Shown: piece by piece, positions 392-62,848 of the stretch
How the letters are laid out: every line of letters begins with the position of its first letter
Numbering within the stretch: the first letter of the stretch is position 1
Source of the DNA: Ilex aquifolium
Taxonomy: Eukaryota > Streptophyta > Magnoliopsida > Aquifoliales > Aquifoliaceae
Reading direction: 5' to 3'
Assembly: GCA_951799425.1 (NCBI GenBank)
Contig: OX637404.1
Span: 248,001 to 312,000, forward strand
Length of the DNA: 64,000 bases
Made by a program: the position numbers and the translations under genes
Notes under the pieces: generated by a model
What the model saw: the letters and a program-made list of their open reading frames with translations, nothing else
Database searches by the model: none
What the model was told of the DNA's origin: nothing

Positions 392-487
392 CTGCGCTTG
401 CATGTGTTTTGTGGACTCAGCCCCATCCAGTGCTGCTTGAGACGAGAGAACAAAAGCATCGACAGGATCATCCCCAGCAGCTAATCT
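392..487 (-). CDS. DHBK: DHBK exon, late DhaL domain
   Basis: This 96-nt, phase-0 exon encodes 32 residues, including [18 protein letters not shown] and [11 protein letters not shown]. This is the family segment just before the conserved C-terminal part. The acceptor is AAATAG before AGATTAGC and the donor is CAG/GTGACG. An alternative acceptor 5 nt downstream (TTAG/CTGCTG) would break the frame with the preceding exon, which decided the boundary. The final exon, with the usual AGRSSY start, is not found in positions 1-391, so it lies beyond the left edge. Confidence 0.88.
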
Positions 488-3400
488 CTATTTATAAAGG
501 TTCATATATTAGCAAATTACTTTCAGGCCAAAAACTACATGACACAAAACCCAATTGACCATTAATGATAACCTCTCTAAGAACCAACAATGCCGGAGTA
601 AGAGCATCTAACAGAGTGCGATGACCTACACTAGCCCCCCCATATTTACTGACTGCTGCAATGCCAGCTTCAAGTGCATCAGCCCCTGAACAACATAACT
701 CATTAATGAAAGAGTATTAACTAATGAAGAACAAATCTGAGACTTACTGGACTAGAAATTATCTCACACTGCATGGGTGTAACAACAGAGTGGCTGTCTG
801 CTTTCAACTGTGCATATGCTGCCTTACAGAATATATTATATCTGTTTTAAAGACAGATGTTCAAGCTGTGTGATAACTAAAAACAAAAATAAAAACTTTA
901 AGGGTGAACAAACAACCATAATAAATATTTTCGAGACAGCGTAGATACTATACATGATGCCACTTGTTCCTCCCATTACTCTACTGATAGAAGATCCAAT
1001 TTCGTTGACAGTTTCTGCAGCATCATTGAGCGGATAGCTGGAAAAAGAAATTGAAAGCAAAAACAAAATTAGAAATAATTACATGATAAGCCCACGTCTG
1101 TGGAGCTCAAATGAGTAATGATCGCCGAAAACCATTATCCTATATCAATGGATGATTGCGGACGAAAACAAATCTGTTAGCAAAGCAAGAAAAAAGAATA
1201 ACAATGTAACGACCCGCCCCAACTGTCAAGATATTGTTTACTTTGAGTGCCCATATACCTTCACGGTTTTGTTTCTCTGGGGCTTCGCCTAAAAAATGAC
1301 TCTTGACAATTAAGGGTGAGCACACCACATATATAGCCTAGTCACTCCCCCATCCCGAGTCGATGTGGAATGCAACACATGAAGCTGCAGCACCTCCTCA
1401 CCTCACAAGGCCTTTTGGCAAGCTACTATACTCCACCCCCCCCCCCTTCCTTAGAGGCCCACGCGTCCTTGCCAAGCCCATGTGGGGTCCACCCCCCACT
1501 GGCTGTAAGAGAGTCGCCTCAGATATCACCTATAACGATCCGTCCTAACTGTCAAGATATTGCCCACTTTGGGTGCCCGTTTACCCTCACGGTTTTGTTC
1601 GTCTAGGGTTTCACCTAAAAAAGGCTTCTTGGAGAATTAAGGATGAGCACACCACATATATAGCCCAGTCACTCCCCTTCTCGAGTCGATATGAGATGCA
1701 ACACATGAAGCTATAGCACCTCCTCACCTCACAAGGCCTTTTGACAATCAAAAGTGGGCCTCGCGAGGACACGTGGCCTCTAAGGGGGGTGGAATGTAGT
1801 AGCCTATCAAAAGGCCTTGTGAGGTGAGGAGGTGCTATAACTTCATGTGTTGCATCCCACATTGACTCGGGAGGGGGAGTGACTAGGCTATATATGTGGT
1901 GTGCTCACCCTTAATTGTCAAGAGACCTTTTCTGGGCGGAGTCCAGAGGAACCAAACCGTGAGGGTGTATAGGCACCCAAAGTGGACAATATTTTCACAG
2001 TTGGGGCGGATTGTTACAAGTGGTATCAGAGCCGACCAGTTGGGGGGTGGACGAGGATGCGTGGCCACTAAGGGGGGTGGAGTGTAATAGCCAGCCAAAA
2101 GGCCTTGTGAGGTGAGGAGGTGCTATACCTTCATGCATCGACTCAGGAAAGGGAGTGACTGGGTTATATATGTGGTGTGCTCACCCTTAATTGTTAAGAG
2201 GCATTTTCTGGGCGAAGCCCGGATGAACAAAACCGTGAGGGTGTATAGGCACTCAAAACAGACAATATATTGACAGTTAGGGCGGGTAGTTACAAACAAA
2301 ATAAACAGAAATGTAAAAGTCTTATGTTTCCAATCAGCATATTATGCTGCATGCTATGCCATAAGATTCCCATTGAATCCACTAACGCAAAGAAAAACCT
2401 ATTCATAAGTCATGTAGGCCTAACTACAGATATATGGCTGGTTAGAAAATAAAATTACTAAAGTTCAAGCAACAGTAATGTAGATCCAGTATACTGGAAG
2501 CAGACTAATTCATATGAATTTTTTTGAGCTACTATAATAGGTTGTAATAAATTGTCCAGCTATTAACTCAGAAGTGATTAAGTGCAAATATATTATTGTC
2601 TTCCTTAAATCTTACCTAGTTATTAACATACAGAAAAAGATACCCTAGCATAATTGGTAGAAGCAACGGTTACAGCACAATAAATTAAAGAACAAGCTTC
2701 CAAAGCTTGTGGAAATTTAAACATCAGCATTGACATAACTAACCCAAACTCTATAGGATGCTCCACCAAATAGAAGTATCCCTTTAATCACTATCATGGT
2801 GAACTTTATGCATAACACTTACCTAGAAAGGTTCTTACGAAGAATTCAAATTTTTTAGATACTCGCTGATCAACAACAGCATAAAAACAAGGTAAATTAC
2901 TTCTAGAGGATATCCTCAACAATCAATGGTTTCATACCCATCAGACCTGGCTTCAAACTCAGAAATACAAACACAAGTACAGTTGAGCATTAAGGAGGAA
3001 TACTTATTGGGCAATGTAAGATTTCAACCCCATTCTTAATCATAGTTGCGCATTACTGTAAAGAATGTGAGAAATGTCACATAATGATAGGCATTCAGAT
3101 CATCCTAATTGGCATACACCAAATTGGGCCACCTATTCCAGACCTTATTTCAATCTCATACTTTTCCAACACCCATTATGGCATGCCAAAATGCTCACTG
3201 ACCACTGAATACTTCATATGAATTTGCATCCAATAATCCTCTGGCATATGTATTTGAAAATAACTTGAGCCAAGACAGAAGCACCTCTTCATTTCTTCCA
3301 AAAGTTAGCACAAAAGTCAAGATAGGGGGAATGAATTGGTCCAACAACAAACAGCAGGGCAAGAAAGGAGAATCCATGAGAAATAGAAAGCATTGAAATC

Positions 3401-6400
3401 AGAAGCTAGCCTCTTGTTAGTCGATACATCACAGATTACTGAATTCAAAGCAAGCCTCAACCAAACTATTTGGGATCCGCTACAAGCGAAGGAAGTCTCA
3501 GAGTACTTCACTGTCAGTGGCTCAAAGTACTAAAATTTCCATCATACGAAACCCCGATGTATTCCAGACCTTCACAAGGATTTGATAAATCAATGGTGTA
3601 AATAAGTGCATGGGGAGTGTTTCTCACACTTCACATTATTACCCCAATAAGATTTTACTTTCTCTACTAACACCAACAAATATCACACCAAGGTCATATT
3701 TACTTTAAAGCCCATGTAATCTTAGTCCTCCTCAACAGAGTGCCAAAACTGTCCACATTTCATAATTCTCCAAAATGGTTTGTAGAAGGGAATCATGTAA
3801 ATACGAATGTGTGAGCTAAGGCATGTCATATATGACTTCCTAACATGGTTTATGGAATATGGACTTTTACTTACTATCATATACTTATTACAAAATCTTT
3901 TACAAAGTTATACATGACACAAGGATAATGAGCAAACTAAACGTCCATTTTCATATACTTACTGTTAAAGCCCCGAAAATGTATTTGAGGAAGTGGTTTG
4001 GTTGTAGGAAAACCAGTCTGAGGCAAGGAAAATTTCGTTTCGAAACTTCTGAAACGTTTTTATTTCCAAAGAGACTGAAATGAATCAGTGATGAAATCTG
4101 AAACGTTTTTATTTCCAAAGAGACTGAAACGAATCAGTGATGGAATCGAAATTCTAATATTCCATAATATTTCGAGATATTCCATAATATTTCGAGATGT
4201 TTTGTAATATTTCAATGCATTTACGCAATTGTTTCGAAATGTTTCAAGGTTTTTCAAGATACTTTAATATATTTCGATTAATGTATTGGAAAAATAATTC
4301 TTAAATTTTTTATTTTTTTCATTATGTTTCTAAAATGGGTCGGAACGTTTCTGAAACACGTCAAAACGTTTTTGTTTCCTAGGTGACCAAAACAATACAC
4401 TGAAATGAAATTTTGATCCATGGTCTGAGGTACTTGTTCCCCGTATGTCGGAACCTACAACAGGTATGCTTGGTTGGTTTCCTATTCTTGGTTTTGTTAG
4501 CTTGTAGTAGGTGTTTTGTTTGTATGGGGTGCTCTGCTTGTATCTTATGTTCTCTAATCTTTTGCTCTAATAAAATTCAGGGACAATTCTTGTTAGTGAG
4601 TCAGGGGAAATAGGGTTGAACCGGTCTAGAATGGGTCTGAACCGGCCTGAAATTTGCAGAACCAAATTTAGATGGTCTGAACCGGCATGAAATAGGGCTG
4701 AATCGGCATGGAATGGGCTGAATCGGCATGGAATGGGCTGAACCGGCCTGAGAGGAACTGATAATTTGAGCCGGACTGGACAAAGCTGGTCACCAGACTC
4801 CAACTGGACTTGGGCTTTGAACGGATTAGACTTAGATTGGTTGTTGTGGGCTTAATAACGTCAAAACCCTACCCGATTGAACTCGGGTCTTGTCTTCAAT
4901 CTCTAACGACGTTAAATGGAACCCTATTGGCCTCTCAACAACGAAATGGCAACAACCCAGCCTCTTCGACTCAACTGCAACAATCAACAACCCAATAAAT
5001 TCGTCACTGAAACTTGTGGCTCCGGCAATCGATTGACTGCAAGAATCAACAACCCAATTACTTCATCAACTCAACTGCAACATGTGGCTCCGACGATTGA
5101 TCCTCAACAACAGCAACGCAATCGATCATTGTTCACTCCACTACGACCACGAATCAACAACTCAAAGGTGGTCGGCAACATCGACTCCACCCCGAAGACG
5201 AACAAGGACTCAACAGCGGTGATTTCCTTCTTGACGGGGCTATGCATAATGCGTGGCTCTGATACCTTGATAACAATATATCGAGTTCTAGATCGAGAGA
5301 GAGAGAGAGAGAGAGAGAGGCGTAATTAAATAGGAAGAGAAAAGCTAAACATTAATTAATCACAGAGAGTTATATAGTTACACATGGAATAGGGTAATGA
5401 CCCTATTGCCCCTAACTAACAATTACAATGACACCCCTTTGGGTGTTACTTACATTGCAAAATGGTCCTTCTTGTTTCAGATATCACAATGGCACCCCAG
5501 TCAAAATGTGTCGGCTGACAGACATTACCGGAGATATTTTTGAAGTTTGTACTCAACTTTGTAATGTCTCCCCCAATACTGGGTTAAGAGTCCCCCAATT
5601 CGAATCCAAAACTCCCCAACCAAATACCAACCCTAGGAAACACCAAACCACCACCGCACCAATAGCCCGAAACCACACACCCCTATTTCTCTCTCTCTCT
5701 CTCTCTCTCTCTCACACTGACAAACACAAAGGCACACACACAAGAACACCCAATATAGTGTAATATCCTAGATTTTTAAAAAATGGGGATTGCAATTTTA
5801 ATATACTTAGTGATGAAATTTTGAGATTTTTTTTTAGAATGATGATTAGGATGAATTGTAGGGTATAAGGTTATTACAATCTGGATAGGAAATTTGGAGA
5901 TTTCAAATGAATAAATAGACCTCAAAAATGAATTCCCTGTGTGAAGACGAGTCCAATGCCTGCAACATTAGATAGATTTCATGTTGGAAGAAAAATGTCA
6001 TGCTAAGTGCCCAAAGTATCCAGAATGTACATATAGTTGTCCAATTGCATGTGTGACAAGTGGTGGCCATGTGACAAGTGGTAGCCATGCATTTGTGACA
6101 AGTATCAAGCTAAGAAACCATGCAAGGGGACACCTTCTCCTTGCATTTGCCTATAAATAATTGACAAAGTTCAACCACAAACCATTAAGAAAGAAGAGAA
6201 AAATAGGGAGGAACCGAGAGAGAGAGAGAGAGAGACGTGGACATGAAAAATCTGTAAAATTTGTTGTCAATATTAACGGTGAAATTAACTCAAATTGAGA
6301 TAAAATTTGAGTATATTATTCTTAAGGTTATATAAGTGGATTATCTCGCAAATATGTATCCAGTACCGATCTGAATCTGATCTGAAGCGGTTGTAGATTT

Positions 6401-9400
6401 TTCTAATTCTGGGATGGATTTGACTTTTTCATACCGTTATAATGTTTGTATTATGTTTGAAATATCGTTAAATGTTTATTACATTTTGAACCATTTATTT
6501 GTTAAACAGTGTTGATTCTGATTGGATTTTGTCTTTGTAAGCTGTACTAATTATAATATTTTTGATTTGGTTACGGAACAATGGATTTTATTGGAAATAA
6601 TTTTTGATAAAAGATGTGCACACAGATTGAGCGACAGGAGGATTATGAATGACGTTGAGACCATAGAAGGTTTTATGGGTATGATTTATCCGTCTTAGAG
6701 GCCCAATGGCCTTCGGGCTTAGGTTCCAATTGTTACACAGGGAAGCGTATCTTCTTGTGGGGAAAGTTTCTAAAAAGTTGAAATGATGAAATGTGAATTT
6801 GAGGATGTTGTTTGTTCTCTGGTGTGGCACAAAAATAAATTTCGATGCTCGACAAAGAATCTTCTATTTATGTATCGAAAGTATGTTTCTCAAATACCGA
6901 CAAAATTATATATTTTCAAACTGTGTTTCTTTTAAAATAGGATTTACCCACTGAACATACTGTTGGCTCACACTACATCGTTGTATATTTTTTAGGACTT
7001 GCTAAAATCATTTCGAGGGAAAATATATTGTCAATTTAGGGTAGACAGACACGGGTCAATTTGAAGGTTCGAGAGAGATTTATTACTGGATTTGTGTATG
7101 GAATAATGTTTTGAAGCTTGTGATCGCTGTAATTTTTTCCAAAATTGTAATATTTATTACTTTCGGACAAATTCGAAAATTGGATTTGTGGTATTGCGGT
7201 TATTAGTGCTCTGAATGGTGTAATTGGAGGTGTAAGTTGTCGATATTTCACCCAATAATATTTCAAGAAATCGGGACATTATAAAGTGGTATCATAACTT
7301 AAGTTTTAGATCTTGCATGAGTACTATGGGGAGTGCATTAGCCAAGCTTCTGTTGCTATAATGTATAAGTTACAATGGTATCAAAATTGTAGAATTATGG
7401 ATAAATCATTGAATATGGTATTAGAGTGACAAAGTAATTTGCTTACCGACTGTAGGTTTCGAGGACAAAACTTTCTTTTAGGGATATAGATTGTAATATC
7501 CCAAACCTTTTTGAAATGGGATTGCAATTTTAATATGATTAGTAGTGAAATTTTGAGAAATTTTTTGGTTGACAATTAGGATGAATTGTAGGGTTTAAGA
7601 TTATTATAGTCTGGCTAAGAAATTTGAATATTTTAAATGAACAAATGCACTTCAAAAATGGATTGCTTGTGTGAAGACAAGTCCAATGACAATAATATTG
7701 GGTAGGTTTGTGCCGAAAGAAAAATGTCATTCTAAATACCCGAAGTATTCGGGATGTCCATATAGATGTCCAAGTGCATGTGTGACAAGTGGTAGCCATG
7801 CAAGTGTGACATGCCATAACCATGTAGATGTGATAAGTGTCAAACTAAGAGGTGCAAACCATGCAAGGGGACACCTCTTCCATACATTTGCCTATAAATG
7901 GCAGACAACATTCAGTGACAAACTATTAAGAAAGAAGAAAGGGCGAAGAGAAGACAAGGGAGGACCCGAGAGACAGAGAGAGAGGAGAGACAAAGAAGGA
8001 AGAAAGAAGAGAGGAAGAGAAAAGGTAAGGGATGACTCCAGAGAGAGAAAAAATCCTAAGTGGATTATCTTGCAAATATGTATCCATTACCGACTTTTTC
8101 ATACCGTTATAATGTTTTTATTATGTTAGAAATTTCATTAAAATGTTTATTACATGTTGAACCATTTATTTGCTAAGTAGTGTTGATAATGATTCGATTG
8201 GATTTTCGAAAGTTGTACCAATTATGATATTTTTTATTTGGTTATGGAACGATAGAATTTATTAAAAAAAAAATTTTGATAACAATATGTGCACAAGGAT
8301 TGAGCGGCAGTAAGCTTATGAATGACGTTAAGACCAAAGAGGGTTTCATGGGTACCATTCATTGGTTTTGGAGGTCCAATGGCAATGGCCTTCGGGCTTG
8401 GTTTCCAATCGCTACACAAGAGACATCTTCCTCGGGTAAAAGTCCTGAATTGATGATATGTGAATTCTAGGATGTTATTTGTTCTCCGATGAGGCACAAA
8501 AATGAATTTCAATGCTCAATGAAGTATCTTTTATTTATTTATGCGAGGAGTTTTCTATTTATTTATTTATTTATCAAAATTATCTTTTTCGGATAGTGGA
8601 AAAAATAATATATTTTCAGACCGTCTTTATTATAAAATATGATTTACTTACTAAGCATATTGTTTGCTCACCCTAAATTGTTGTATATATTTTTTTTCAA
8701 AAATGCTAGTCATTCAGGAAAAAATATGTTGGCAATTTGGGCTTTGACAAGGCATGTCAATTCAAAGGTTCGAGAGATATTTGGTACTAGATTAGTTTAT
8801 AGAATAATGTTTGGAAGCTTGTTGATTGTACTAGTACTGACAACTGTAATTTTTTTTTGAAAGTTGTAATATGTATTAAGTTGAGAATTATGATTACTTA
8901 AACATATTGAACTTGAGCTGGGCAAAGCTGGATTGAGCCTTAATTGGGCTGAATTGTTTGATGACCCTGGGGTTTGTGAAAACCTGAAATGCAACCCAAG
9001 AGAGAAACCGGATCTTGTCATCCTTGTGCAACTTGGGATTGAACTTCCTGCAAGCACCAGGTTCCAGCAGCGACACCACTCACCGATCCACCTCCGGCAA
9101 CGACAAAAGCCAAAAATAAATCACCGGCAACGACCAAAAAAAATACCCAAAACCATCACCCACTCAATAAGCAATGCCCAGCCACTAGAGAAGATACTGA
9201 ACAATTGGCTCAATACACATCAAATTCAACATTCAATACCCACAGCCAGTGGTTCTAGGTCCATGATCGTGGGCTACATAGAACAAGAACCAAACAAGAG
9301 CAACGAAAAAAAACAAAAAGAAAGACAGAGGAACAACGGGTTTAAAATTCAGTACTAACAACGAGTTTTAGATTAAATTGGAATACCAATGCTCTGATAC

Positions 9401-36400: not shown

Positions 36401-39400
36401 TTGCCACCAAAGTGGTTCATTCATTGAAATTTTAAGATCGTTCTCATGCTTTTATTACGGGATAGTCTATAAATTATAATATACAATTACCTGCCCAAAA
36501 AGGGTTATTGTGTGTTATAATTTGGAGAAGTCATGAAACATTGTGTTAGAAATGTAATAGTCTAGAAGGTCTATCTTCCCAAAAGGGATAGATTTTTTGA
36601 AACTTAAATATTCTCATTGGTTAGTTTCATGAAAAAGATGACCGATTGCAAATTGCGTTCTCTGACCAAAGGAGAGTTTGTAGTTATGTATTTAAACTCT
36701 CTTAATAAAATATGACTTATTATAATTAAAGTATATTTTATTTATTTATTGCCCAATTTTGCAAACTGGTTGCATTCTCGTTGCCTTGACTAGCCTCTTT
36801 TCTTGGCAATAATAATAATGTCAACATTGAGATCCTGACTAGTTCTAATTATAAGAGATGAAAGCAAGATATTAAGTTTATCCTGAGAATTGCTAATATA
36901 GTCTTAGCCTTGCAAGAGAATGAACCTCCTAAACCTACCAGTGAAAACTCCTCTAAAGTAAAAGAACATTATACAAAGTGGCAAAAATCTAATCGACTGA
37001 GTATGATTACCATGAAAAAGTCTATTTCTGAACACCTTATGAGTAATTTGCCTGAAATCAAGAATGCAAATAAGTTCTTTACTGTTGTAGGAGAGAGATA
37101 CAATGTATCCAATAAGACTGAAGTTGGGGCGTAATGAATGAAGTGACGAGTATGAAATATGATAATATAGGCTGTGTTAGGGAATATATCCTTAAAATAG
37201 TCCATATTCAAACCAAGCTCAAAACTTTCAAAATTTATATTCCTGATTATTTCATTATTCACACTCTTAATTTTTTGCCTCCTAAGTTTAGTCAAATCAA
37301 AACTACCTATAATACCCAAAATGAGTCTTAGACAGTAAATGACCTTATCTCCTAGTGTGATTCCGAGGAACAAAAACTTAGAAAAAAAAGAGTGAAACTG
37401 CCTAGTTTGTTTCCCAGCCTAGATCTAGTTTCAAAGGTGGGTATCTAAGAAATAAAAGAAAATCTAATCATAATGCTCCAAAAAAGGCATGGTACTGGTC
37501 AGAATGTGGAAGGTCCTAAGGCTGCCATTCGAAAATATGTCAAGAGTTACTTTTGCAAGAAATGAGGTCATAAGAAAAAAGTGAGTGCACTAGATTAAAG
37601 TCTTGGTCAGAAAAGAAGAATAAAGAAGAAGGTACCTCACTAGTCTTTGTTTGCCTTTGAATACAATTTAGTTAATGTCCCATTAAATTCTAAACATGGA
37701 ACAAGATGTACAATTTTGAATTTTAATCTATATCCACTTCTTTGGAGTTCACATACAAGAGTGAAGAGAAGGTCCCTATTCTCCCTAAGCTTGATTGGAA
37801 TCTTTTTGGTGAAGAAAAGCAATAGCAATCACCCAATGAAAATGAGAAGCAAAAGTAGCCACTTATCGAAAATGTGGAGGTTCTTGAACCACAACAACCA
37901 CAAAGACAAGTGATTGAAGATTTAAAGGTCTATTCGAGAAGAAAGAAGGATAAGACCACTTCTCTTCCTCCTTGCCAATCATCATCCTTGACTTTAGGTA
38001 ATTTTGCTCTTCCTGTTTCTAATTCAAATCCTGTTGATGACTCTTCCACTCCAGATTTTCATGATATAGATTTGTCCATTGCGCTAATGATATAGATTTG
38101 TCCATTGCACTTCACAAAGGAGTCACGTCATGTACCCAACATCCCATTTCTAACTTTATCTCATATGATTATCTCTCAGCTTTGTATCCTAGTTGTCTTC
38201 TGTATCTATTAAACCTGCAAGATGCACTTAATGATCCGAAGTGGAAGGAAGCAATGCATGAGGAGATGAAAACTCTTCAGAGAAATAACACATGGGACTT
38301 GGTTAAGCTACGTAGAAGAAATAAGACTGTTAGATGCAAGTGGATGTTTGCAATGAAACATAAGACATGGTTTTGTGGAAAGGTAATCGGCTAAATTGGT
38401 GGTCAAAGGATTCACACAAACATATGGGATTGACTACTAGAAGACTTTTGTTCCAATGGCAAAGAAGATGACCTCAATTCGAGTTCTCTTTCCTTGGCTA
38501 CAAATTTTGTTGGCCCTTTTAGCAGTTTGATGTGAAGAACGTCTTCCTCCATAGAGACCTTGAGAAGGAAGTGTATATGGATGCTCCTCATGCGTTTGAT
38601 TCTTTCTATACTTCGAGCACAATGTGCAAGTTAAGGAAGGGAGTGTATGAATTGAAATAATATCCCGGGCTATGCAGAGATATGGATATAGACAGAGTCG
38701 GAGAGACCATACCTTATTTATTAAAAATTCTTCTCATATGAAGGTAATGGCTCATATTGTATATGTAGATGATATTGTTTTGCCTGGAGATGATTTTGAA
38801 GAGATGCAAAAGTTAAAGAAGAGCCGGTGAGTTTGAAATCAAAGACTTAGGAAGTTTGAAGTACTTCCTAGATATTGAAGTTGTCAAGTCTAGGCAAGGT
38901 ATCTTTATCTCTTGGCGAAAATAGGTTCTTGGTCTTCTTAAGGAGACAAGAATGCTTGGATGTAAGGCCACAGATAACCTAGTGGAGCAGAATTTTAAGC
39001 TAGGAGAAGATGAGCATGCCTCAGTAGACAAAGGCAAATATCAAAGGTTGGTTGATAGACTAATTTATTTATCCCCCACTTGGCCAGACATTGCTTATGT
39101 GGTAATGTTGTAAGTCAATTTATGCATTAACCCCGTCAGTCACATATGAAGGCAATTTATCGTATTCTTCGATATTTGAAATAATCTCGTGGTAAAGGAT
39201 TATTATTTTCTAGACATGACCACAATGAGTGGAACTAGAATCTTATACAGATACAGAATGGGCAGGTGTAGTGATAGATAGAAGGTCTACTTCTGGATAA
39301 TGCACTTGTTGGAGGAAATCTAGTAACATTGAGTAGTAAAAAATAGTCAGTTGTTGCTTGATCAAGTGCAAAGGCAAAGCTTAGAGCTATGGCTCATGAA

Positions 39401-42400
39401 GTGTGTGAATTGCTCTAGATAAAGACTCTACTAAAAGAGATTGGCTATGACTTAGTTGATCTGAAGTGGTTGTACAGTGATAACAAGGCAACAATCAATA
39501 TTGCTCATAATCGGGTTCAACATGATAGGATAAAACACACAGAAATTGAGACATTTTATTATGGAAAAGTTGCATTAAGGGGTAATTTACATCAATTACG
39601 TGAAGACAAGAGATCAACTTGCAGATATATTGACAAAGGGAGTGTCAAGCAAGGTTTTTTCATGCAACTTTAAGAGAGTTGGGAATGCATGATATCTTTG
39701 CCACAGCTTGAGGAGGAGTGTTAGCAAGTTGTATTAGTTTCTAATTCTTATGTTCAAGTAGGGGTGTCAATTTTTTACTCGAACACGAACACGAACCCGA
39801 CTCGAACCGAACCCGACACGAACTCGAAAATAACACGATTAGTTGACACGAGTAATAAATGGGTCAAATTAAGGTTCGACACGAATAACACGATTAATGG
39901 GTACTGTAGATAGAAAATAATTATTTAACGAGTATTGTAGATAGAAAATAAGAATTTTATAATTTTTTATAATTTTTTAAATAGTATTATATTAGTTGTT
40001 GTCAAATTAAATAATTTTTTATTAACACGAATATTGACACGAACCGAAAGTGATACGACACGAAAATAACACGACCGAAAGTGACACGACACGAAAATGA
40101 CACGACACGACACGATTGACACTCCTATGTTCAAGGGTATTTATGTAATTTAATACTCTTCTTTTAACTAGTATAAAAAACATTCTAAGAGTAAGGGAAC
40201 CCTAATACTGGTTCTGCTTAGCTGTAATTAACCTTTTCTCTTCTCCTCTTTCTCCTTAATTCTTTGTGGCTTCTTATTCATATTCTCTTTTTAGTTGATT
40301 CAACCTAAATACTTCAATTGCTAGTCCTCAAAAAGCAAGAAGGCATCGTGTTATGGAGGTGAAAGACACCAAAACTCCTCAGGGATAGTCCATGGAGACT
40401 AGTTATGGATTGATATTATTTTGTCCATATGCAAGACATTGATGGGATTTGGCACTCTTGGTATTGGATCCAACGTGTAGAGTCTACGGCATTCAACTTG
40501 GGCTTTTCAAACAATGGTTTTTACCAGATACTCATACTCACATTCACACTCATATTTCATTCCATATCATGTTTTTACATTCCGTTCATTTGTTAGTGTC
40601 ATTTGTATCTTGTAGAACTACTTGAATATAAAATCTTCTATATGTTATGGAGAATTTACCCAACGGGGCTAATTGAGCTTTCCCTTCCACAAACATTTGT
40701 CAGATAGGTCAGTATCTCAAGGCATAGTGGAAGTTTTTAGCTAGACATGAGCTTGGAAAGTTGCAAAAGGGATTGGAGTTACTTTTTCTTAAATTGAATG
40801 CTGATTACTTTTGAGAAGTGAAGTAGAGGAATTATAGTTCTATAGTCGCTGTTTTGTTAGATTCATGTTGGACCTTGGGCAACGCAGCTTGTGAGGATTT
40901 CGTGAGCCTGATTTGCAACCCAGTCTAAGAAGTTTTGTGTTATATATGATGAGTATTGTCTAGCATAGCAGTGCAGTGGCTCTCACAGGTTAAGCTTGAT
41001 ACCTGTGTCTTGAAAACGGAACCTGGCCAAATTTTTGTTTAGAAAATCTTTCACATTTGACTCTTTTTTTCTGAAAAATAATTGCTAAGCCTGTGTGTTT
41101 GTTGGGATGTACAGTTTTTCTGAATTAAATCACGATTAAGGAAATCTAGGGCACCTAAAGCTCCTACGCTCACAAAAAATGAGTTAAAACAAAATAAAGC
41201 AGAAGGCTCAAGTATGAGATAGCAGGCTTATCATGATTGAACCGCTCTAGCCTCACTGTAAGCATGTGATATGATCACCCTCACCTCCCAATTGGGAGAT
41301 CAAGGGTTCTAGCCTTGCTATAAGCATGGGGTTGGCTGTCTTGGGGTCCCCAACCTGTGGCTGGGGCGGGGAAAAAAAAAAACAAACCTCATCACTCTTC
41401 GGCAAACATGATGGTGGAACTGGAACAGGAACCTTGGCAGGTGGGCGCGAACCTACAAAGCATATATGACTTTTGAGTCCCAATACCAATGTAAATATTA
41501 TGCATACATCTTATCAGTTGTGATCAAGAGAAACAAGAGAAATAAATGGCTCAATGATCTGATCAAATAATATCACTATGGTTCGAGAGAAAGTAACAGT
41601 ATCCACTCGGACACTACAATGGAAGTGTGTTGAATCAAGAGTAGACAATATGCGTCTTTATTATGAACGTTATATTTTGTCGCCACTTATGAAAGGTCAA
41701 GTTGACACAAATAGGCATTGCGATGCAAAGAGAATAGAAGGAACATGTATCACATGCGCAAAATTTGAGAAAATACCACACGAATATTCTACCATAGTGG
41801 GTATTCAAGAATCAGTACATGAAATTTAATGAATTTGAAAGAAATTGTATTGAGAAGTAATCTTTATGGAACTTGCGACGTGTCTATTTGTGTCAAGGGT
41901 CCTAGATATGTAACCGCTCAAGATATTATCTTACCGCCTTATGTAGAACTCGTTGATAATACACAAAATATAGCTAGCTTGATGGAACCAATTGATTTGT
42001 GTATTGGATTACAAATCAAGAGGAATCATGGATATCGTATAAAAATGTCAAGTTTCCGTAATAGATTCCCCTAACGCTAGACTAATAATAATAAATCCCC
42101 CTCAATCGCATAATGGCTCCCAAGGCTCCCTTCCTCTTGTTAGGGTCGATTGTTCGACTTGAGCTTGAGTAATTGACTTTCTCTCCATGGTCTAGCCTTC
42201 AAAGAATTCCAATGATGTTTGCCAAACACACAACTTTCACTAATTCGATCTAGTGTAAGCCCAGCAAAGTAAAAAGACAAGTAGTTTGCAACATTAATGC
42301 ATTCAAAAAAGTAAGCAAAGAACACACTGAATGCGGTCACTAACCATCAACACCAACAGGCCAATATGGAGCCTTAGTAGGAGCATCCAAATGCTGAAGA

Positions 42401-42646
42401 ATAGTTTGATCTGCCTTCATGACAGAGATTGAGAACCCTGCCCAAAACATGTAACTAAAAAAAAGCAAGTGCTAGACAAAAATAAATAAAAAACAGTTTG
42501 GAAGAATTAACGAACCTGCCATATCAAGGGAAGTCATAAACGACCCTGTATACACTCTATCAACAGCCAGGCCATGTTCCAGCTGCAATTGAGGAACAGC
42601 TTTTCCAGCTGCAATCATCAATTCCATTATAGGGGTGGCTCCTAAT
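392..42646 (-). CDS. DHBK: Dihydroxyacetone kinase-type gene (putative 3,4-dihydroxy-2-butanone kinase), nine exons, both ends outside the window
   Basis: Joining minus-strand exons 42516-42646, 42345-42437, 41388-41452, 21203-21346, 21084-21127, 954-1037, 768-841, 573-685 and 392-487 gives 844 nt that stay in one frame. Every junction has a GT donor and AG acceptor. The family phosphorylates dihydroxyacetone or related short ketoses with ATP. The exons encode, in order, the end of the DhaK (ketose-binding) domain, a proline-rich linker ([11 protein letters not shown]) and most of the DhaL (ATP-binding) domain, including VGDGDCGST (the metal and phosphate loop), MGGTSG and KYGGASVG. Plant homologues are close to 590 aa (from memory), so roughly the middle-to-late half is visible. 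The N-terminal exons and the last exon are missing. Introns are 78, 892, 20041, 75, 20046, 112, 82 and 85 bp. No stop or frameshift is seen, so the gene is probably functional. The family assignment is from recognition, not from a search. Confidence 0.9.
573..685 (-). CDS. DHBK: DHBK exon, DhaL domain
   Basis: This 113-nt exon completes a split Trp codon (T/GG) and encodes [20 protein letters not shown] followed by HRTLLDAL and a leucine-rich end. [11 protein letters not shown] matches the conserved nucleotide-binding helix region of plant dihydroxyacetone kinases. The acceptor is TTCAG/GGGCTG and the donor is GAG/GTTATC. The exon ends in phase 0, matching the next exon. Confidence 0.9.
768..841 (-). 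CDS. DHBK: DHBK exon, DhaL domain
   Basis: This 74-nt exon encodes [20 protein letters not shown] and then TPMQ. It starts one base into a codon and ends with the first base of the split Trp codon. The acceptor is AACAG/ATATAA and the donor is AGT/GTGAGA. The frame joins both neighbours without a stop. Confidence 0.9.
954..1037 (-). CDS. DHBK: DHBK exon with GGTSG motif, 3' of a 20-kb intron
   Basis: This 84-nt exon encodes [20 protein letters not shown] and MGGTSGI. GGTSG is a conserved glycine loop of the DhaL domain. The acceptor is TTTTTCCAG/CTATCC, with a good polypyrimidine tract, and the donor is AT/GTATAG. The first base completes a His codon started in the exon at 21084-21127. The two half-codons are therefore separated by about 20 kb of transposon-filled DNA. 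Confidence 0.92.
1205..2294. mobile_element. Inverted cluster of TRIM/SMART-type miniature LTR elements
   Basis: Four copies of a 210-226 bp LTR lie here in two head-to-head pairs. Minus-oriented copies are at 1205-1430 and about 1531-1750. Plus-oriented copies are at 1795-2018 and 2083-2294. The plus LTRs start TGTA(G/A)TAGCC and end GTTACA. The internal part of the right-hand pair (2019-2082) is only 64 bp: a primer-binding site (TGGTATCAGAGC) at once after the LTR, then a purine-rich tract (AAGGGGGGTGGAG) before the second LTR. The left pair has a longer, decayed internal part (about 100 bp). The copies meet near 1750 in truncated internal sequence, so transcripts could fold into a long hairpin. 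There is no coding capacity. Such elements depend on proteins from other LTR elements. Confidence 0.85.
1795..2294 (+). mobile_element. Complete TRIM unit: LTR, 64-bp internal region, LTR
   Basis: LTR 1795-2018 (224 bp), internal 2019-2082, LTR 2083-2294 (212 bp). The primer-binding site TGGTATCAGAGC starts 2 bp after the first LTR. The purine tract abuts the second LTR. No target duplication is seen, because the left side runs directly into another partial internal segment (about 1756-1794), as expected for a tandem or rearranged array. LTR divergence (several substitutions and small indels) shows it is not recent. Confidence 0.82.
2295..4015. other. Intron sequence without recognised features
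   Basis: About 1.7 kb of AT-rich sequence in the large kinase intron. I found no credible ORF, LTR end, terminal repeat or RNA gene here on either strand. It may be original intron or very old transposon DNA. Confidence 0.5.
4024..4422. mobile_element. hAT-type MITE, copy 1 (399 bp)
   Basis: The element is bounded by an exact 8-bp duplication, GTCTGAGG (4016-4023 and 4423-4430). Its ends are inverted: CAAGGAAAATTTCGTTTCG on the left and the complement of CATGGATCAAAATTTCATTTC on the right. The body is built of GAAACGTTT/AAACGTTTC subterminal motifs and has an internal direct duplication of about 45 bp (AACGTTTTTATTTCC appears twice). It has no ORF. The ends match those of the 5.2-kb hAT element at 44040-49274. 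Confidence 0.88.
4570..5421 (-). mobile_element. Degraded minus-strand copia-like LTR element (leader plus one LTR)
   Basis: On the minus strand a candidate LTR (about 5421 to 5271) starts TGTTAGTTAGGGGC, carries a TATATAA box and a GA/CT microsatellite, and is followed by a primer-binding site (GGTATCAGAGCCACG, complement of 5249-5265). Downstream, 4600-4790 holds repeated CTGAACCGGC-type motifs. These resemble the GGTTCAG-rich leader of the copia elements at 13.4 kb and 43.8 kb. The partner LTR and all coding sequence are missing. The 137-codon open frame at 4916-5329 lies in this leader and ends in the microsatellite. I do not regard it as a gene. Confidence 0.5.
5422..5758. other. Intron spacer with CT microsatellite
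   Basis: No gene is seen. A (CT)n run of about 24 bp lies near 5690-5712, followed by a CA-rich stretch up to the next LTR. Confidence 0.5.
5759..7283 (+). repeat. 5' LTR of the compact element
   Basis: It runs from TGTAATATCC to ATTATA and is directly followed by AAGTGGTATCATAACTT. It aligns along its length with 7492-9693. Shared landmarks include GATGAATTGTAGGGT, CATGTGTGACAAGTGG, a GA microsatellite near 6210-6235 and TTACTTTCGGACAAATTCG near the end. Confidence 0.75.
7492..9693 (+). repeat. 3' LTR of the compact element, interrupted by a copia derivative
   Basis: This is the second copy of the 5759-7283 LTR. It is split at 8878 by a 697-bp insertion with TATTA duplicated on each side. 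Without the insertion it is about 1500 bp, close to the 1525 bp of the other LTR. The open frame at 7671-8129 lies within the LTR, in its GA-rich part, and is not regarded as a gene. Confidence 0.75.
8879..9575 (-). mobile_element. Internally deleted minus-strand copia derivative (697 bp)
   Basis: The element is bounded by a 5-bp duplication, TATTA (8874-8878 and 9576-9580). On the minus strand its LTR runs from 9575 (TGTTAAGAGTTC) to about 9404 (ending CAACT), then a primer-binding site (TTGGTATCAGAGC, complement of 9391-9403). Only about 20 bp of the other LTR remain (8879-8898, AGTTGAGAATTATGATTA). LTR style and ends match the copia elements at 18416-20830 and 57141-63038. The 141-codon plus-strand ORF at 8933-9358 overlaps the internal region antisense and is not supported as a gene. 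Confidence 0.78.
9694..10280. other. Intron spacer, no gene recognised
   Basis: There is a CA-rich stretch (9720-9775), a GGT/TGG-rich stretch (9840-10080) and a short GA microsatellite (10145-10165). The 66-codon ORF starting at 9898 is low complexity and has no recognisable motif. Confidence 0.45.
10281..10870 (+). repeat. 5' LTR of the gag-only element
   Basis: A 590-bp repeat starting TGATGCAATCC and ending CCTACATCA, directly before TTTGGTATCAGAGCC. It contains a TATATATAG box near 10671 and repeated TACTGTTCACA motifs near the end. Its second copy is 12271-12759 plus 18186-18297. Confidence 0.82.
10927..11978 (+). pseudogene. Retrotransposon gag (gypsy-type capsid domain), one in-frame stop
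   Basis: The frame opens with [20 protein letters not shown], the typical start of plant gypsy gag proteins. It has a stop near 11081 and continues as a 288-codon open frame from 11112. The capsid signature is clear: [19 protein letters not shown], then [18 protein letters not shown]. The family packages element RNA into particles. After about residue 130 the sequence becomes charged and low complexity, and no zinc knuckle is seen. The stop (TTTGATGG context) could be a single substitution. Frames beyond 11978 up to 12328 are shifted relics. Confidence 0.75.
12271..12759 (+). repeat. 3' LTR of the gag-only element, first part
   Basis: It matches 10281-10769 or so (TGATGCAATCCACAAGATGC onward) and is broken by the copia insertion. 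The remainder continues at 18186-18297, and the copia duplicated TTAGT at the break. Confidence 0.8.
12760..12942 (+). repeat. 5' LTR of the intact copia
   Basis: Starts TGTTAAGAATATTAGGG and ends AAACTTAACA. It contains CTATAAATACAAG (12839-12851), a TATA-type promoter, followed by a CT-rich stretch where transcription probably starts. Confidence 0.93.
12943..12954 (+). promoter_or_regulatory. Primer-binding site for minus-strand DNA synthesis
   Basis: TGGTATCAGAGC directly abuts the LTR. This is the standard plant copia site, complementary to the 3' end of initiator methionine tRNA (established knowledge). Confidence 0.92.
13566..13740 (+). repeat. Tandem 30-32 bp repeat in the copia leader
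   Basis: About five units of the type CCGGTTCAGTGTCCAGCAGG followed by CCCTTGTGGG lie head to tail just before the start codon. They sit in a longer GGTTCAG-rich leader (13395-13760). The spare reading frames at 13482-13792 are products of this repeat and are not genes. Confidence 0.85.
13782..17990 (+). CDS. Ty1-copia gag-pol polyprotein, intact, 1402 aa
   Basis: One frame encodes all retrotransposon proteins in copia order. Gag (about 30-230) includes [19 protein letters not shown] glycine/arginine-rich stretch (240-268) is followed by a CCHC knuckle, [14 protein letters not shown] (about 271). Next come aspartic protease [13 protein letters not shown] (about 366), the pre-integrase zinc finger (WHCRLGHP to [11 protein letters not shown], about 490-530), and integrase with [15 protein letters not shown] and NGVAERKN (the D, D and E catalytic residues). 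Reverse transcriptase has [13 protein letters not shown] and YVDDI (about 1085). RNase H has [16 protein letters not shown] and CDNQAAI. The stop is 7 bp before the LTR. The length is normal for the family and no catalytic residue is missing. The first ATG after the leader was taken as the start. Overlapping frames at 14335-16734 are shadows. Confidence 0.96.
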   Translation: MDPKQDSGSLTPFVPPTSTPTIINGPLTSVKLNGTNYTLWSRSAQVFLRGKGFKKYLVDPKPKEDTPGYDQWEQEDAQIISLLLNSIEPSICSTLLYLDTAKEVWDHLATMYSGTGNFTRAYEVCQEYFRLEQSTLSVEDYYSQIRGVCEEMKTYHPFTTDAAVWKKQHEDMSVVRFLVGLKPEYEAIRSQILGGSSLPSLLEVFSRVHRATLSTSGNHHGTSTDRSALVVPGSHSDGHRGGRGGRGGRGSRGRTGGRTGGRGGRSGPRSCTHCGRGGHTVDFCWDLHGKPSGAANQASYQDDTSVVASIARSAPPDTGSVTVTLGREEYAQFLSQQQAVPSPSTATFAQSGIAPTCLLSSTRSPWIIDSGASDHMTGASDVFSTYQSATSTRSVTLANGTCSQVSGSGTTHLSTDMSLSSVLFVPQFPFSLLSISKITRSLNCSVTFYPSYCVFQDLKTKRKIGTGHEAGGLYYFDFDSPTRALQTSLSPFQWHCRLGHPSLQNLKRQVPGLRCVSSVSCEACQLSKHHRVSFQSRVNNRVSSPFELVHSDVWGPIKNISSNKYPYFVSFVDDYSRVTWLFLMKARSELFSIFETFRKEIKTQYGCRIRILRSDNAREYESDPFSAYLSKAGIIHQTSCAYTSPQNGVAERKNRHLLEVTRALLFQMNIPRYFWSDAVLTACHLINRMPSSVLNGQSPYSVLFPGKPLFSLPPKVFGCVCYVHNLGPGFDKLDPRATKCVFLGYSRTQKGYRCYSPSLRRYFTSADVTFEESVPYFSVPSQPLDLDFGSSHVPPSLSSSSDIPLPTVLPSTLPLRVYSRRPRPSTEVPVPSSLPPSDPGTSDNLDSLPIALRKGTRSCVTNHPIAHFVSYDALSPVFSCFTSQLSTISVPKHLQDALSDPGWRKAMEEEMDALHHNGTWDLVPLPPGKRPVGCRWVYTVKFHPDGSVERLKARLVAKGFTQTYGIDYEETFSPVAKISSVRILISLAANLDWPLFQLDVKNAFLHGDLVEEVYMEQPPGFTAQGEYGKSVCRLKKSLYGLKQSPRAWFGKFSDAVLEFGLRRCQTDHSVFHRQTDAGYVLLVVYVDDIVITGNDSEGIAKLKIFLQDRFHTKDLGKLRYFLGIEVARSKQGICLSQRKYVLDMLEEAGLLGGRPIDVPMDPNQKLLMDDGALFENPGRYRRLVGKLNYLTITRPDISYAVSIVSQFMGCPRVPHWEAVTRILRYLKRAPGLGLLYRANGHLRVEGFSDADWAGSPSDRRSTTGYCTFLGGNVVSWKSKKQSVVARSSAEAEYRAMAHTTSELTWLLHFLQEIGFPVQLPLQLFCDNQAAIHIAANPVFHERTKHIEVDCHFIRDKIVAGEITTPFVKSEDQLADMFTKALSRTCLAGICSKLGLYDIYSPA
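17998..18180 (+). repeat. 3' LTR of the intact copia
   Basis: Second 183-bp LTR. No difference from 12760-12942 was found on direct comparison. It is preceded by the polypurine tract at 17989-17997 and followed by the TTAGT duplication. Confidence 0.93.
18615..20091 (-). pseudogene. Copia reverse transcriptase/RNase H fragments
   Basis: Minus-strand fragments read [20 protein letters not shown] then DSTIKL (about 19990-19880), [20 protein letters not shown] then [13 protein letters not shown] (about 19235-19130), and [15 protein letters not shown] to [14 protein letters not shown] (18800-18620). These are in the normal copia order but have frameshifts, stops and deletions. The gag, protease, integrase and most reverse transcriptase regions are absent. 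Confidence 0.8.
19237..19836. mobile_element. MITE-like insertion inside the copia remnant (600 bp)
   Basis: This AT-rich block interrupts the RNase H-side coding sequence at a point where related copia proteins are continuous. The ends are roughly inverted: CTGTGAAACACGAATAC on the left and the complement of CTATGAAGCACATATAC on the right. Possible 8-bp flanks (TTATCAAC/TTACTACC) agree at 5 positions only, so it is old or the edges are slightly off. Inner parts have inverted GTATCC/GGATAC motifs. It has no ORF. Confidence 0.55.
20661..20774 (+). mobile_element. tRNA-derived SINE with target duplication
   Basis: About 110 bp inserted in a copia LTR. It is flanked by the 17-bp repeat AAGGGAATTACAATATT (20644-20660 and 20773-20789, overlapping the A-tail by two bases). 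It contains an A-box-like GGTCTAATGATAC and a good B box, GGTTCAAGTCC (20727-20737), the internal RNA polymerase III promoter of tRNA-type SINEs. It ends in a C run and then an A-tail. It encodes nothing and relies on a LINE for mobility. Confidence 0.82.
21084..21127 (-). CDS. DHBK: DHBK exon, 44 nt, 5' of the second 20-kb intron
   Basis: This small exon encodes [14 protein letters not shown] and two bases of a His codon. The acceptor is CTCTTGCAG/ATGTTC. The donor CA/GTATGT is strong and joins CTATCCG at 1037, 20 kb downstream, to restore HYPLNDAAE. The Met is internal, not a start. Confidence 0.9.
21203..21346 (-). CDS. DHBK: DHBK exon with the DhaL metal-binding loop
   Basis: 144 nt, 48 codons. 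It encodes [20 protein letters not shown], then [16 protein letters not shown]. The aspartates of GDGDCGST bind the Mg-ATP complex in DhaL-type kinases (established), so catalytic capacity looks preserved. The acceptor is TTTTGGTTAG/GCATTC, the donor ACA/GTAAGT, and both ends are phase 0. It follows a 20,041-bp intron. Confidence 0.93.
21347..21879. other. Intron sequence without recognised features
   Basis: About 530 bp of AT-rich intron DNA next to the exon. No terminal repeats or coding sequence are seen. Confidence 0.5.
21880..22310 (-). pseudogene. LINE (L1-type) C-terminal fragment
   Basis: The minus strand reads, across frameshifts and stops, [13 protein letters not shown], then [20 protein letters not shown] and [15 protein letters not shown]. 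This is the zinc-binding region (C..C....DH.F..CP.A...W) that ends plant L1-type LINE reverse transcriptases. It is followed by a decayed tail. The 5' part of the element is missing, as is usual for truncated LINE insertions. It is assigned from motif recognition only. Confidence 0.65.
22311..23310. other. Intron sequence without recognised features
   Basis: About 1 kb. A C-run followed by an A/GAAA-rich tract lies at 22896-22950 and may be a decayed SINE tail. Otherwise nothing is recognised. Confidence 0.45.
23386..24009 (+). repeat. 5' LTR of the gypsy element
   Basis: 624 bp, starting TGTTTGCACCC and ending GCCAAACA. It matches the 34459-35998 copy along most of its length, for example GACATCATG, CATCTCGAGAAAAAAGGCC and TTGAACCCTAAG. 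It lacks about 70 bp present in the other LTR. The 75-codon ORF at 23594-23818 lies inside it and is not a gene. Confidence 0.8.
24101..24878. mobile_element. hAT-like MITE of family B (778 bp), copy 1
   Basis: The 8-bp duplication CCTCCAAT (24093-24100 and 24879-24886) flanks inverted ends CATAGTTATCAAA and TTTGACAATTATG. Both subterminal regions are packed with GTACGATTCG/CGATTCGTA motifs. The inside is AT-rich and noncoding. A second member is at 34498-35326 in the 3' LTR of the same gypsy element. Confidence 0.82.
25597..26955. other. Unidentified 1.36-kb block splitting gag, LTR-like
   Basis: The block lies between two gag segments that should be contiguous, so it is probably an insertion. 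Edges are approximate and no duplication was found. It contains CTTATAAATAGG (26229), a TATA-type box, and upstream several motifs with a CTCGAG or TCGAGC core between 25970 and 26190. The layout resembles an LTR (regulatory repeats, TATA box, untranslated part), but the family is unknown. Confidence 0.4.
27340..28218 (+). pseudogene. Gypsy integrase, C-terminal half, frameshifted
   Basis: The frame reads [31 protein letters not shown] and [18 protein letters not shown]. After a frameshift near 27620 it reads [38 protein letters not shown], and the C-terminal WKVRLSLGL to [21 protein letters not shown]. It joins DNA of element copies into the host genome. It lies only about 100 bp after gag, so protease, reverse transcriptase and RNase H have been deleted. 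An A-run at 27482-27496 may have helped cause the nearby frame problem. Confidence 0.82.
28219..29400. other. Gypsy internal spacer between integrase and antisense ORF
   Basis: Noncoding, as is usual for the long 3' part of Tat-lineage elements. Open frames on both strands at 28331-29087 have no recognisable motif. Confidence 0.45.
29400..34160 (-). pseudogene. Antisense ORF with plant mobile domain, split by a solo LTR
   Basis: On the minus strand, 34155-33919 reads [20 protein letters not shown], then [18 protein letters not shown]. This is the core of the plant mobile domain found in the antisense ORF of Tat/Retand gypsy elements. The frame continues in pieces to 33050 ([20 protein letters not shown], then [10 protein letters not shown]). 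Removing the 30107-33044 LTR with one flank copy makes it run on as [14 protein letters not shown] at 30106-30070. A further open part lies at 29975-29655. Stops and shifts are present, and its role in the element is unknown. Confidence 0.65.
30107..33044. mobile_element. Probable gypsy solo LTR (2.9 kb)
   Basis: It begins TGTAAGACACG and ends GGGGTGTTGCA. Near-matching 5-bp flanks are CACAA (30102-30106) and CACCA (33045-33049). Both edges are supported independently because deleting the block rejoins the antisense reading frame. It is noncoding, with A-rich and GA-rich stretches (30780-30930) and a degenerate array of GTCTACGTGACGA-like motifs at about 32090-32530. No internal region accompanies it, consistent with LTR-LTR recombination. 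Confidence 0.65.
34459..35998 (+). repeat. 3' LTR of the gypsy element, with MITE
   Basis: It is preceded by a purine tract (TTTTGGGGGGCAA) and starts TGTTTATACCC. The MITE at 34498-35326 sits 39 bp inside it. The end is approximate: similarity to the 5' LTR stops at AAAAATACG, where a palindrome begins. Confidence 0.75.
34498..35326. mobile_element. hAT-like MITE of family B (829 bp), copy 2
   Basis: The ends CATAGTTATCAAATCG and GATACTAACAACTATG are inverted. Flanks GTGATACG (34490-34497) and GTGACACG (35327-35334) agree at 7 of 8 positions. Subterminal regions consist of CGTATCG/CGATACG motifs and, as in copy 1, there are AAAACGACGTCGTT-like palindromes inside. Charged ORFs at 34763-35069 come from a GAAGA-rich tract and are not genes. 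Confidence 0.82.
35994..36021. repeat. 28-bp near-perfect palindrome at the gypsy 3' edge
   Basis: Arms ATACGGGTCTTGT and ACAAGACCCGTAT are separated by CA. A third partial copy (AAGACCCGTAT) follows at 36025-36035. It lies exactly where similarity between the two gypsy LTRs stops. Confidence 0.85.
36036..36840. other. Sequence before a copia remnant, unassigned
   Basis: AT-rich and without ORFs. It may be the decayed 5' LTR and leader of the following copia element, but I could not match it to the 3' LTR at 39719. Confidence 0.35.
36840..39718 (+). pseudogene. Copia gag-pol remnant
   Basis: Pieces follow in copia order: gag (36910-37330, [20 protein letters not shown] and [10 protein letters not shown]), a knuckle-like KSYFCKK with a stop before GHKKK (about 37545), a hinge near 37920, reverse transcriptase (38215-38380, [20 protein letters not shown]) and its FDVKNVFLH and VYVDDIV traces (38525-38780), and RNase H (39470, [19 protein letters not shown]). 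Protease and integrase are absent and many stops and shifts are present. The end is followed by a polypurine GAGGAGGAG and an LTR. Confidence 0.8.
39719..40310 (+). repeat. 3' LTR of the copia remnant, interrupted by a MITE
   Basis: It starts TGTTAGCAAGTTG directly after the purine tract. Without the MITE it continues through an AGTATAAAAAAC TATA-type box (40171) and a CT-rich stretch. The right end is not clear (no CA end or duplication recognised), so 40310 is approximate. Confidence 0.55.
39759..40126. mobile_element. MITE of family C (368 bp) with ACACGA-rich body
   Basis: It is bounded by the 9-bp repeat ATGTTCAAG (39750-39758 and 40127-40135). The ends AGGGGTGTCAAT and ATTGACACTCCT are inverted. 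Subterminal parts are full of ACACGAA/CACGACACGA motifs. A 9-bp duplication would fit a Mutator-type relative and an 8-bp one a hAT relative, and I cannot decide between them. Confidence 0.8.
40311..41225. other. Intron sequence without recognised features
   Basis: About 0.9 kb, with no credible coding or repeat structure seen. Confidence 0.45.
41240..41383 (+). mobile_element. SINE-like element abutting a kinase splice donor
   Basis: The sequence GAGATCAAGGGTTCTAGCC (41298-41316) resembles the B-box region of the SINE at 20661-20774 (GAGGTCAGGGGTTCAAGTCC). A TGATATGATCACC-like stretch stands in the A-box position. It ends in a G-rich part and an A-run at 41372-41382, only 5 bp from the exon edge at 41388. 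CTAGCC..GTAAGCATG occurs twice in it. No target duplication was found, so the call is tentative. Confidence 0.45.
41388..41452 (-). CDS. DHBK: DHBK exon, interdomain linker
   Basis: A 65-nt exon encoding [20 protein letters not shown] then E. This is the proline-rich hinge between the DhaK and DhaL domains. The acceptor is CTTTGTAG/GTTCGC and the donor is GAG/GTTTGT. The first two bases complete a Gly codon (G/GT) and the exon ends in phase 0. In the transcript the donor is followed immediately by a run of U, which comes from the tail of the SINE-like element. Confidence 0.9.
41578..42075 (+). pseudogene. rpoA: Chloroplast rpoA fragment in the nucleus (NUPT)
   Basis: The plus strand reads [20 protein letters not shown] to [16 protein letters not shown]. 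After a one-codon-size break it continues [40 protein letters not shown] and [13 protein letters not shown]. This is the N-terminal half of the plastid RNA polymerase alpha subunit, recognised from its strongly conserved sequence. A frameshift plus small deletion near 41712-41735 removes part of the family segment GIAMRRALLGE. A stop at 41827 separates the halves, and similarity ends near 42060. It lies in antisense orientation within a kinase intron and is not functional. Confidence 0.92.
42345..42437 (-). CDS. DHBK: DHBK exon, end of DhaK domain
   Basis: A 93-nt exon encoding [20 protein letters not shown] and [11 protein letters not shown]. The acceptor is TTGGGCAG/GGTTCT, the donor GATG/GTTAGT. 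It starts two bases into a Gly codon and ends with the first base of the Gly codon completed at 41452. Confidence 0.93.
42516..42646 (-). CDS. DHBK: DHBK exon, DhaK domain (most upstream exon visible)
   Basis: A 131-nt exon encoding [40 protein letters not shown] and DMAG. The acceptor is AAATTGCAG/ATTAGG and the donor GCAG/GTTCGT. It begins with the third base of a codon, so at least one exon lies upstream. None is recognisable in 42647-64000. Confidence 0.94.
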
Positions 42647-43780
42647 CTGCAATTTAGAAGCAATGAAACAGCAGAAAATGTTTGCTAGAAAACAATATAC
42701 AGCTTAGACCAAATGTGATGTAGATTGAAAAGTACCAGATAACTAGCCGCACTAGTGAAAGTTCGCAAAAATTAATCATGTGCAGCCCACAAAACCCAAA
42801 AAAAATCATGCTGTATCATATAAACGGACAGTACCAAAATATTCTGCAAATGGAAAGACTGTAATTTCAAACAAAGGGTAACTCAATCACTGTTCCATCT
42901 TCGCATTAATATTCTTCAGAGGGCGAGTATTAGAAATGTCAAGGTCTGCATAATTCCAGATTTAAACTAGAATAACTTTAGCTCCATTTTTTACTAAACA
43001 AGTACATCTCTATCCTGATCAGATTTAGCATCAGAGTTTTGAAAGAATCAACAGTTAGTAGGGTAACACAATCATGGGGGTACACTAGTTTTGCCAAAAA
43101 TTACGTTTTTTCTCTAATCAATTTATTGCTGGTATGCTTTCTAAAATTTCCAAGAAATTAGTGTGAATGGACCCTTATGTTGGACCCACCAAGAAAGAAA
43201 TCTCTAATTAGATACTTTAGGGGTCTAGTGTGAAATTTTATATTGATCAACTCAATGGGAAATTGGGAATATAGTACTTAGAACTTCAGAGAAAGCATGG
43301 CTTATGGCATCGCCAGTTTCTATGTGACAGCACCAAATCTTGAGTCCCTCCTACTCTCCGACACCATAGTAGGTTTTAAATCATGCCAGTTGTGCAAATT
43401 TAAGGAGCGTATGGTGTGCTCATAATCATTTTTCTCTATTTTTCCTCAAGGGCATTTGAGGTGGTGGTAATTTTTGTTGACTTGGGCACCTTTCATTTTC
43501 GTCGATGACTCGGCAGAGCTCTAATGAGGACAAAGGTTGCTCCCATCAACCATGGAACCTACTATATGAGAAAATGAAATACAAACTCAACTAATTGTTC
43601 ATTGCTCAAATGGGCTTTTGTGCAATAATTGTCCCATATTTCCATATTGTATTTCATGTAATTCATTTCTCACTTATATTTTCAATAGACCACATTTTTT
43701 ATTATTTTGAAGAAAATGTATTCCTTACAAACTAAAACCAAAGCCCTAAAACCGATGGACATTTTCGTTATCACATAAAT
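42647..43780. other. Upstream intron sequence, one possible copia trace
   Basis: Mostly featureless. On the plus strand at about 43295-43430 a broken frame gives GLWHRQF and FKSCQLCKFKER, faintly like a copia pre-integrase finger. This is too weak for a firm call. Confidence 0.35.
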
Positions 43781-45215: not shown

Positions 45216-45365
45216 ATGCATAAGTACCATTAATTTAATTTGATACCCTTCATTATTAGTATTATTAATTGGATAATATTTTAATTTAAAAGTGTTATAC
45301 ATGTCATATTTAATTTGTAAAATAAATATAATGTATTTGATAATGTAATAACATTTATTGTAGAT

Positions 45366-57016: not shown

Positions 57017-57140
57017 GTTAAATTAGATAATTGAGGAAGGAGAAAATCAAATACCAATTAAAGACCCATGCCCATCCCAGGGGAGCCAGATGAATAGTAC
57101 CGTTCAGATGCCACTTTCACTGTCCAAACGCAATGATTGA

Positions 57141-62846: not shown

Positions 62847-62848
62847 AG

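Follow-up and report, generated by a model that had tools for sequence, protein, structure and literature searches.

Structure of the kinase locus

The window analysed here is a stretch of 64,000 nt from Ilex aquifolium (assembly GCA_951799425.1, contig OX637404.1, positions 248,001 to 312,000 of the forward strand). Its minus strand contains 844 nt of coding DNA, which is divided into nine exons running from window position 42646 to 392 (Table 1). In gene order the exons are 131, 93, 65, 144, 44, 84, 74, 113 and 96 nt long, and they are separated by introns of 78, 892, 20,041, 75, 20,046, 112, 82 and 85 bp. When the nine exons are joined, one frame gives 281 complete codons with 0 stops, while the other two frames contain 25 and 16 stops. 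GT or AG was found at all the splice sites (18 of 18; 9 acceptors and 9 donors). No RNA genes were detected by Rfam gathering scores or by ARAGORN.

An initial annotation had described nine exons joining in one frame across introns of 20,041 and 20,046 bp, with junctions at 41388/21346 and 21084/1037, canonical splice sites and no lesion. The nine exons are indeed all present on the minus strand in an open frame, and both lengths and both junctions were reproduced exactly. The larger of the two introns lies in phase 2. It separates the half-codons CA and C of one His, just as the annotation had it.

Table 1. Coordinates of exons, introns and repeat elements in the window
Feature	Position	Strand	Remarks
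Exon a	42516..42646	-	End of Dak1 domain
Exon b	42345..42437	-	End of Dak1 domain
Exon c	41388..41452	-	Dak1-Dak2 linker
Exon d	21203..21346	-	Start of Dak2, with GDGDCGST stretch
Exon e	21084..21127	-	Dak2; CA of the split His codon at its end
Exon f	954..1037	-	Dak2
Exon g	768..841	-	Dak2
Exon h	573..685	-	Dak2
Exon i	392..487	-	Dak2
Giant intron A	21347..41387	-	20,041 bp, GT-AG, phase 0, junction 41388/21346
Giant intron B	1038..21083	-	20,046 bp, GT-AG, phase 2, junction 21084/1037, splits His CA/C
Probable third giant intron, 3' part	42647..64000	-	21,354 bp; hAT-type transposase stretch and three Copia fragments
Old LTR element, putatively Gypsy-type	23425..35998	+	LTR pair, integrase ORF; 12.6 kb, exact ends uncertain
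Copia pol fragment	38065..39650	+	Found by tblastn using the Copia ORF of the window; approximate bounds
Degenerate, frameshifted rpoA fragment	41578..42035	+	RNA polymerase alpha chain 8w9z_A, 7.9e-77
Short gag-bearing LTR element	10281..18297	+	LTRs, PBS-like sequence, gag; 2,591 bp without nested insertion
Intact Copia element	12760..18180	+	5,421 bp; nested in 3' LTR of the gag-bearing element
Copia pol fragment	18624..20035	-	Same orientation as the gene; tblastn; approximate bounds
Fold-back repeat (self-inverted, 76%)	1205..2294	.	Near the acceptor of intron B

Protein family of the joined frame

The 281-residue product was compared with Pfam, and residues 135-280 match Dak2 (2.4e-32; profile positions 1-142 of 174), while residues 1-67 match the C-terminal part of Dak1, that is, only the last fifth of the profile (2.8e-16; positions 247-312 of 313). 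Almost the whole product (residues 1-280 of 281) aligns with 26vk_A, a deposited dihydroxyacetone kinase, at 5.7e-30. Residues 33-248 align with 1un8/1un9, which we take to be the single-chain dihydroxyacetone kinase of Citrobacter. In these alignments the GDGDCGST stretch of the product stands opposite GDGDCGET in 26vk_A and GDGDTGST in 1un9_A. Judged by these profile and structure matches, the family assignment of the joined frame is far above chance, and the earlier reading of a dihydroxyacetone kinase-type gene is borne out by both the Pfam domains and 26vk_A. Since the end of Dak1 and most of Dak2 are matched, the locus is read as the 3' half of a one-chain (Dak1-Dak2) dihydroxyacetone kinase gene. 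The domain order and the GDGDxG stretch are common to the locus and to the single-chain enzymes (26vk; 1un8/1un9); the locus differs in that the window covers just its 3' half and that giant introns interrupt its coding sequence. Judged by their titles, the papers returned by a literature search did not deal with dihydroxyacetone kinase genes with transposon-bearing introns in plants.

Contents of the introns

The largest insertion in intron A is an LTR element whose repeats (23425-24002 and 35421-35998) are 85% identical (K ~0.173). It contains an integrase ORF at 27307-27702 (rve, 2.3e-08, with 34.6 bits where the cut-off is 32.6), and we read it as putatively Gypsy-type rather than as a member of another superfamily. 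At its aligned borders no clear target duplication was seen. Ten ORFs were scanned against profiles at a threshold of 0.1, and only 27307-27702 scored above the curated cut-off. In a separate Pfam scan of ten proteins, two (ORFs 27605-28006 and 38065-38394) had no family at 0.001; the first adjoins the scoring integrase ORF, and the second lies inside the Copia stretch identified by tblastn.

Exons b and c are separated by 892 bp, about half of which is taken up by the rpoA fragment. This fragment is presumably of plastid origin, as judged from its protein; the solved chains that it matched are named only RNA polymerase alpha. Together with the types of element present, it points to a plant host.

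In intron B, two LTR elements are nested. The outer one, which bears gag, has a 590-bp 5' LTR, LTR ends TGATG...CATCA, and a PBS-like sequence (TTTGGTATCAGAGCC). Its LTR pair is 92% identical over 559 ungapped columns (K ~0.09), and the gag ORF at 11082-11978 matches Retrotrans_gag at 3.6e-13. The interior of 1.4 kb is too short for pol and gave no match to Copia pol, the only pol compared. We take this element to resemble the TR-GAG (terminal-repeat gag-only) type. No target duplication was seen in its flanks at the borders that we set.

The inner one, a Copia (Ty1) element, is inserted in the outer element's 3' LTR. It has two identical 183-bp LTRs with TG..CA ends, a TTAGT duplication on both sides, a PBS (TGGTATCAGAGC) and an uninterrupted gag-pol of 1,404 aa, in which integrase precedes RVT_2 in one frame. 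Since there are 0 differences between the 183-bp LTRs, the insertion is recent, and the 95% bound on its age is 0.6 to 5.5 million years under assumed rates of 1.3e-8 to 1.5e-9. This structurally intact copy is a candidate for an element that is still active or was so until recently.

The initial annotation did not say what the giant introns contain. Of intron A, 70.7% lies in the element spans listed here; the share is 52.5% for intron B and 44.5% for the stretch upstream of exon a. Each span is counted whole between its outermost matches, domain-less interiors included, and other repeats do not enter the count.

Near-equal lengths of the two giant introns

The near-equality of 20,041 and 20,046 bp had been called probably chance by the initial annotation, and the contents of the two introns agree with that view. 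A comparison of A with B at E 1e-3 gave only three shared pieces (59-179 bp, 68-78% identity), all of them in Copia pol stretches. The intact Copia with its 5-bp duplication accounts for 5,426 bp; taking both away would leave an intron B of 14,620 bp. Since different insertions make up A and B, and one recent Copia took intron B from 14,620 to 20,046 bp in a single step, the near-equality is accidental, a passing coincidence, and we regard this as close to demonstrated.

For one random pair of introns, the chance of a difference of 5 bp or less is as low as ~0.0002-0.0005 (three assumed log-normal length distributions), a figure that would favour a reason behind the equality, such as one intron having been copied from the other or the length being under selection. 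However, such a pair is unsurprising among many multi-intron genes in a scan that reports oddities, the contents differ except for the weak Copia matches, and intron B would be shorter, at 14,620 bp, without the Copia insertion. A causal equality is therefore extremely improbable. Intron duplication as the source of the equal size was rejected, the likeness of A and B being limited to weak Copia matches.

Missing ends and a probable third giant intron

Both ends of the gene were searched for with generic query sequences, a plant-type one for the N-terminal part and another for the C-terminal part. As a control, the C-terminal query found all the expected exons (7 of 7; c-i), in linked groups at E 2.1e-35 and 2.5e-23, with exon c alone at 6e-5 and one stray match at 0.62. 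It gave no last exon in window positions 1-391, so by this generic query the last exon is placed outside the window, left of position 1. The N-terminal query gave credible matches only to exons a and b, and its next best matches had E 2.7, or 6.1 at other settings. The active-site His of Dak1 binds the substrate covalently and is expected in the N-terminal exons, none of which was found in the window.

Since no N-terminal exon was found upstream of exon a, a third giant intron is likely; as far as the generic query can tell, it probably extends beyond the 21,354 bp that lie between 42646 and the end of the window. The initial annotation had raised such an intron of more than 21 kb as a possibility. 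This part of its reading now appears likely, with only the 3' part of the intron in view and its far end beyond the window; the 5' exons that it proposed to look for upstream and the last exon left of position 392 were not found in the window.

A hAT-type transposase gene or relic lies on the plus strand of this upstream stretch at 45398-47840, with BED (below cut-off), DUF659 and hAT dimerisation matches in two reading frames.

Integrity of the gene

That no N-terminal exon was found in 21 kb upstream could also mean that duplication of a dihydroxyacetone kinase gene left a recent pseudogene or a 5'-truncated piece here, too young to have gathered lesions. However, all nine exons are free of stops, frameshifts and splice-site losses. 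The LTRs of elements in the introns are 8-15% diverged, and a gene that died as early as the Gypsy-type insertion should show lesions. The expectation was estimated by a simple and rough model which takes LTR divergence as a clock, counts stops and splice dinucleotides only, and is weaker for a late death. For a death at the Gypsy-type insertion (K ~0.173), ~2.3 stops and 3.1 losses of splice dinucleotides are expected and none was observed (P ~0.005); for a death at the insertion of the younger, gag-bearing element, zero lesions have P ~0.07. As for truncation, a third giant intron accounts equally easily for the missing exons. We consider a pseudogene or truncated fragment unlikely. Since there are zero lesions alongside elements with LTRs 8-15% diverged, the sequence favours a gene that selection maintained through most of the time in which its introns grew. 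The plant would then appear to tolerate the intron load, as the initial annotation had supposed.

Repeats of this kind can mislead assemblers, and an assembly join might have set unrelated exon blocks 20 kb apart. Nothing direct points to such a join, and several observations stand against it: the window is without N, the three exon blocks are correct in order, strand and phase, and the Copia is complete with its target duplication. A misjoin is thus very improbable. An assembly gap was rejected as well, with 0 N in the window.

Probable growth of the introns by transposon insertion

Beyond the observed exon structure, open frame, family, main element identities, nesting order and recent Copia insertion, we hold it very probable that the locus is the 3' half of a plant Dak1-Dak2 gene, one that probably works, in which two introns and probably a third have grown to at least 20 kb by successive transposon insertions. 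LTR retrotransposons and other transposons would have inserted one after another until the introns reached 20 kb or more, while selection would have held the exons and splice sites and the intron interiors would have drifted. A primary transcript would have to span more than 42 kb, and the small exons would be joined across gaps of 20 kb. By analogy with Arabidopsis and rice, the insertions are probably silenced as intronic heterochromatin and may be read through with IBM2-type machinery. In rice, when OsIBM2 is impaired, the affected genes with heterochromatic introns are reported to lose their 3' transcript through premature polyadenylation (PMC7145194); the present gene resembles those OsIBM2-dependent genes in having transposons in its introns and premature polyadenylation to avoid. 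Among the points against this explanation, the gene could be truncated, with the N-terminal and last exons outside the window, and both the Gypsy-type and the gag-bearing elements are without a target duplication at the borders set.

Long introns in other plants

Introns of this length have been counted in other plants. Ginkgo is reported to have 16,939 introns longer than 20 kb (12.45% of all), and much of the length of its long introns is ascribed to LTR elements (PMC5118899). For Cornus officinalis, 13,567 introns longer than 12 kb are reported (11.7% of all), its long introns being repeat-rich and Gypsy-enriched (PMC12860560). Among 2,184 chosen orthologs of Chloranthus, 876 genes are longer than 20 kb, and here too LTR elements are named as a major source of intron length (PMC8626473). 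Some introns of conifers exceed 10 kb (PMC4108047). Like the kinase gene, long-intron genes in Ginkgo, Chloranthus, magnoliids, Cornus officinalis and conifers combine normal exons with very long introns, and no difference in kind from those of Ginkgo, Chloranthus and Cornus was found. White spruce is different: repeats are reported to account for only 2.94% of its intron sequence (a figure quoted in PMC5118899), so long plant introns are not always built by transposons.

Introns of about 20 kb are thus not striking in several plant lineages, and the locus is one more such gene, real and ordinary. It opens no new question. It offers a clear small example of how a plant gene swells, with normal exons and with two introns of equal size that were built up from separate insertions of different age, one of them recent. 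This matters for annotation: if its maximum intron length is set short, a gene finder would break the visible part of the gene into three.

Element orientation and minor repeats

Among the scored elements, 8 of 9 are antisense to the gene (one-sided P 0.02), a post hoc count of elements that we chose ourselves, 4 of which (three Copia fragments and the hAT stretch) lie in the unproven third intron, so that it is not leaned on. The set of surviving insertions may reflect selection against sense-oriented ones, which could cause premature polyadenylation, an idea that we find unlikely. Such selection has reportedly acted on human endogenous retroviruses. In rice, no orientation bias of intronic elements was seen genome-wide (PMC7145194), and in this they differ from the mostly antisense set of the holly locus.

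Two direct-repeat pairs occur in intron B (5753-6232 with 7484-7984, and 6422-7121 with 8092-8822), which suggests that 5753-8822 is a duplicated block or an old element. In the stretch upstream of exon a, 55498-57016 is an inverted pair of 353-bp arms that are 85% alike, and a third copy of ~327 bp is found in intron B at 4097-4423; together they are probably members of a small repeat family.
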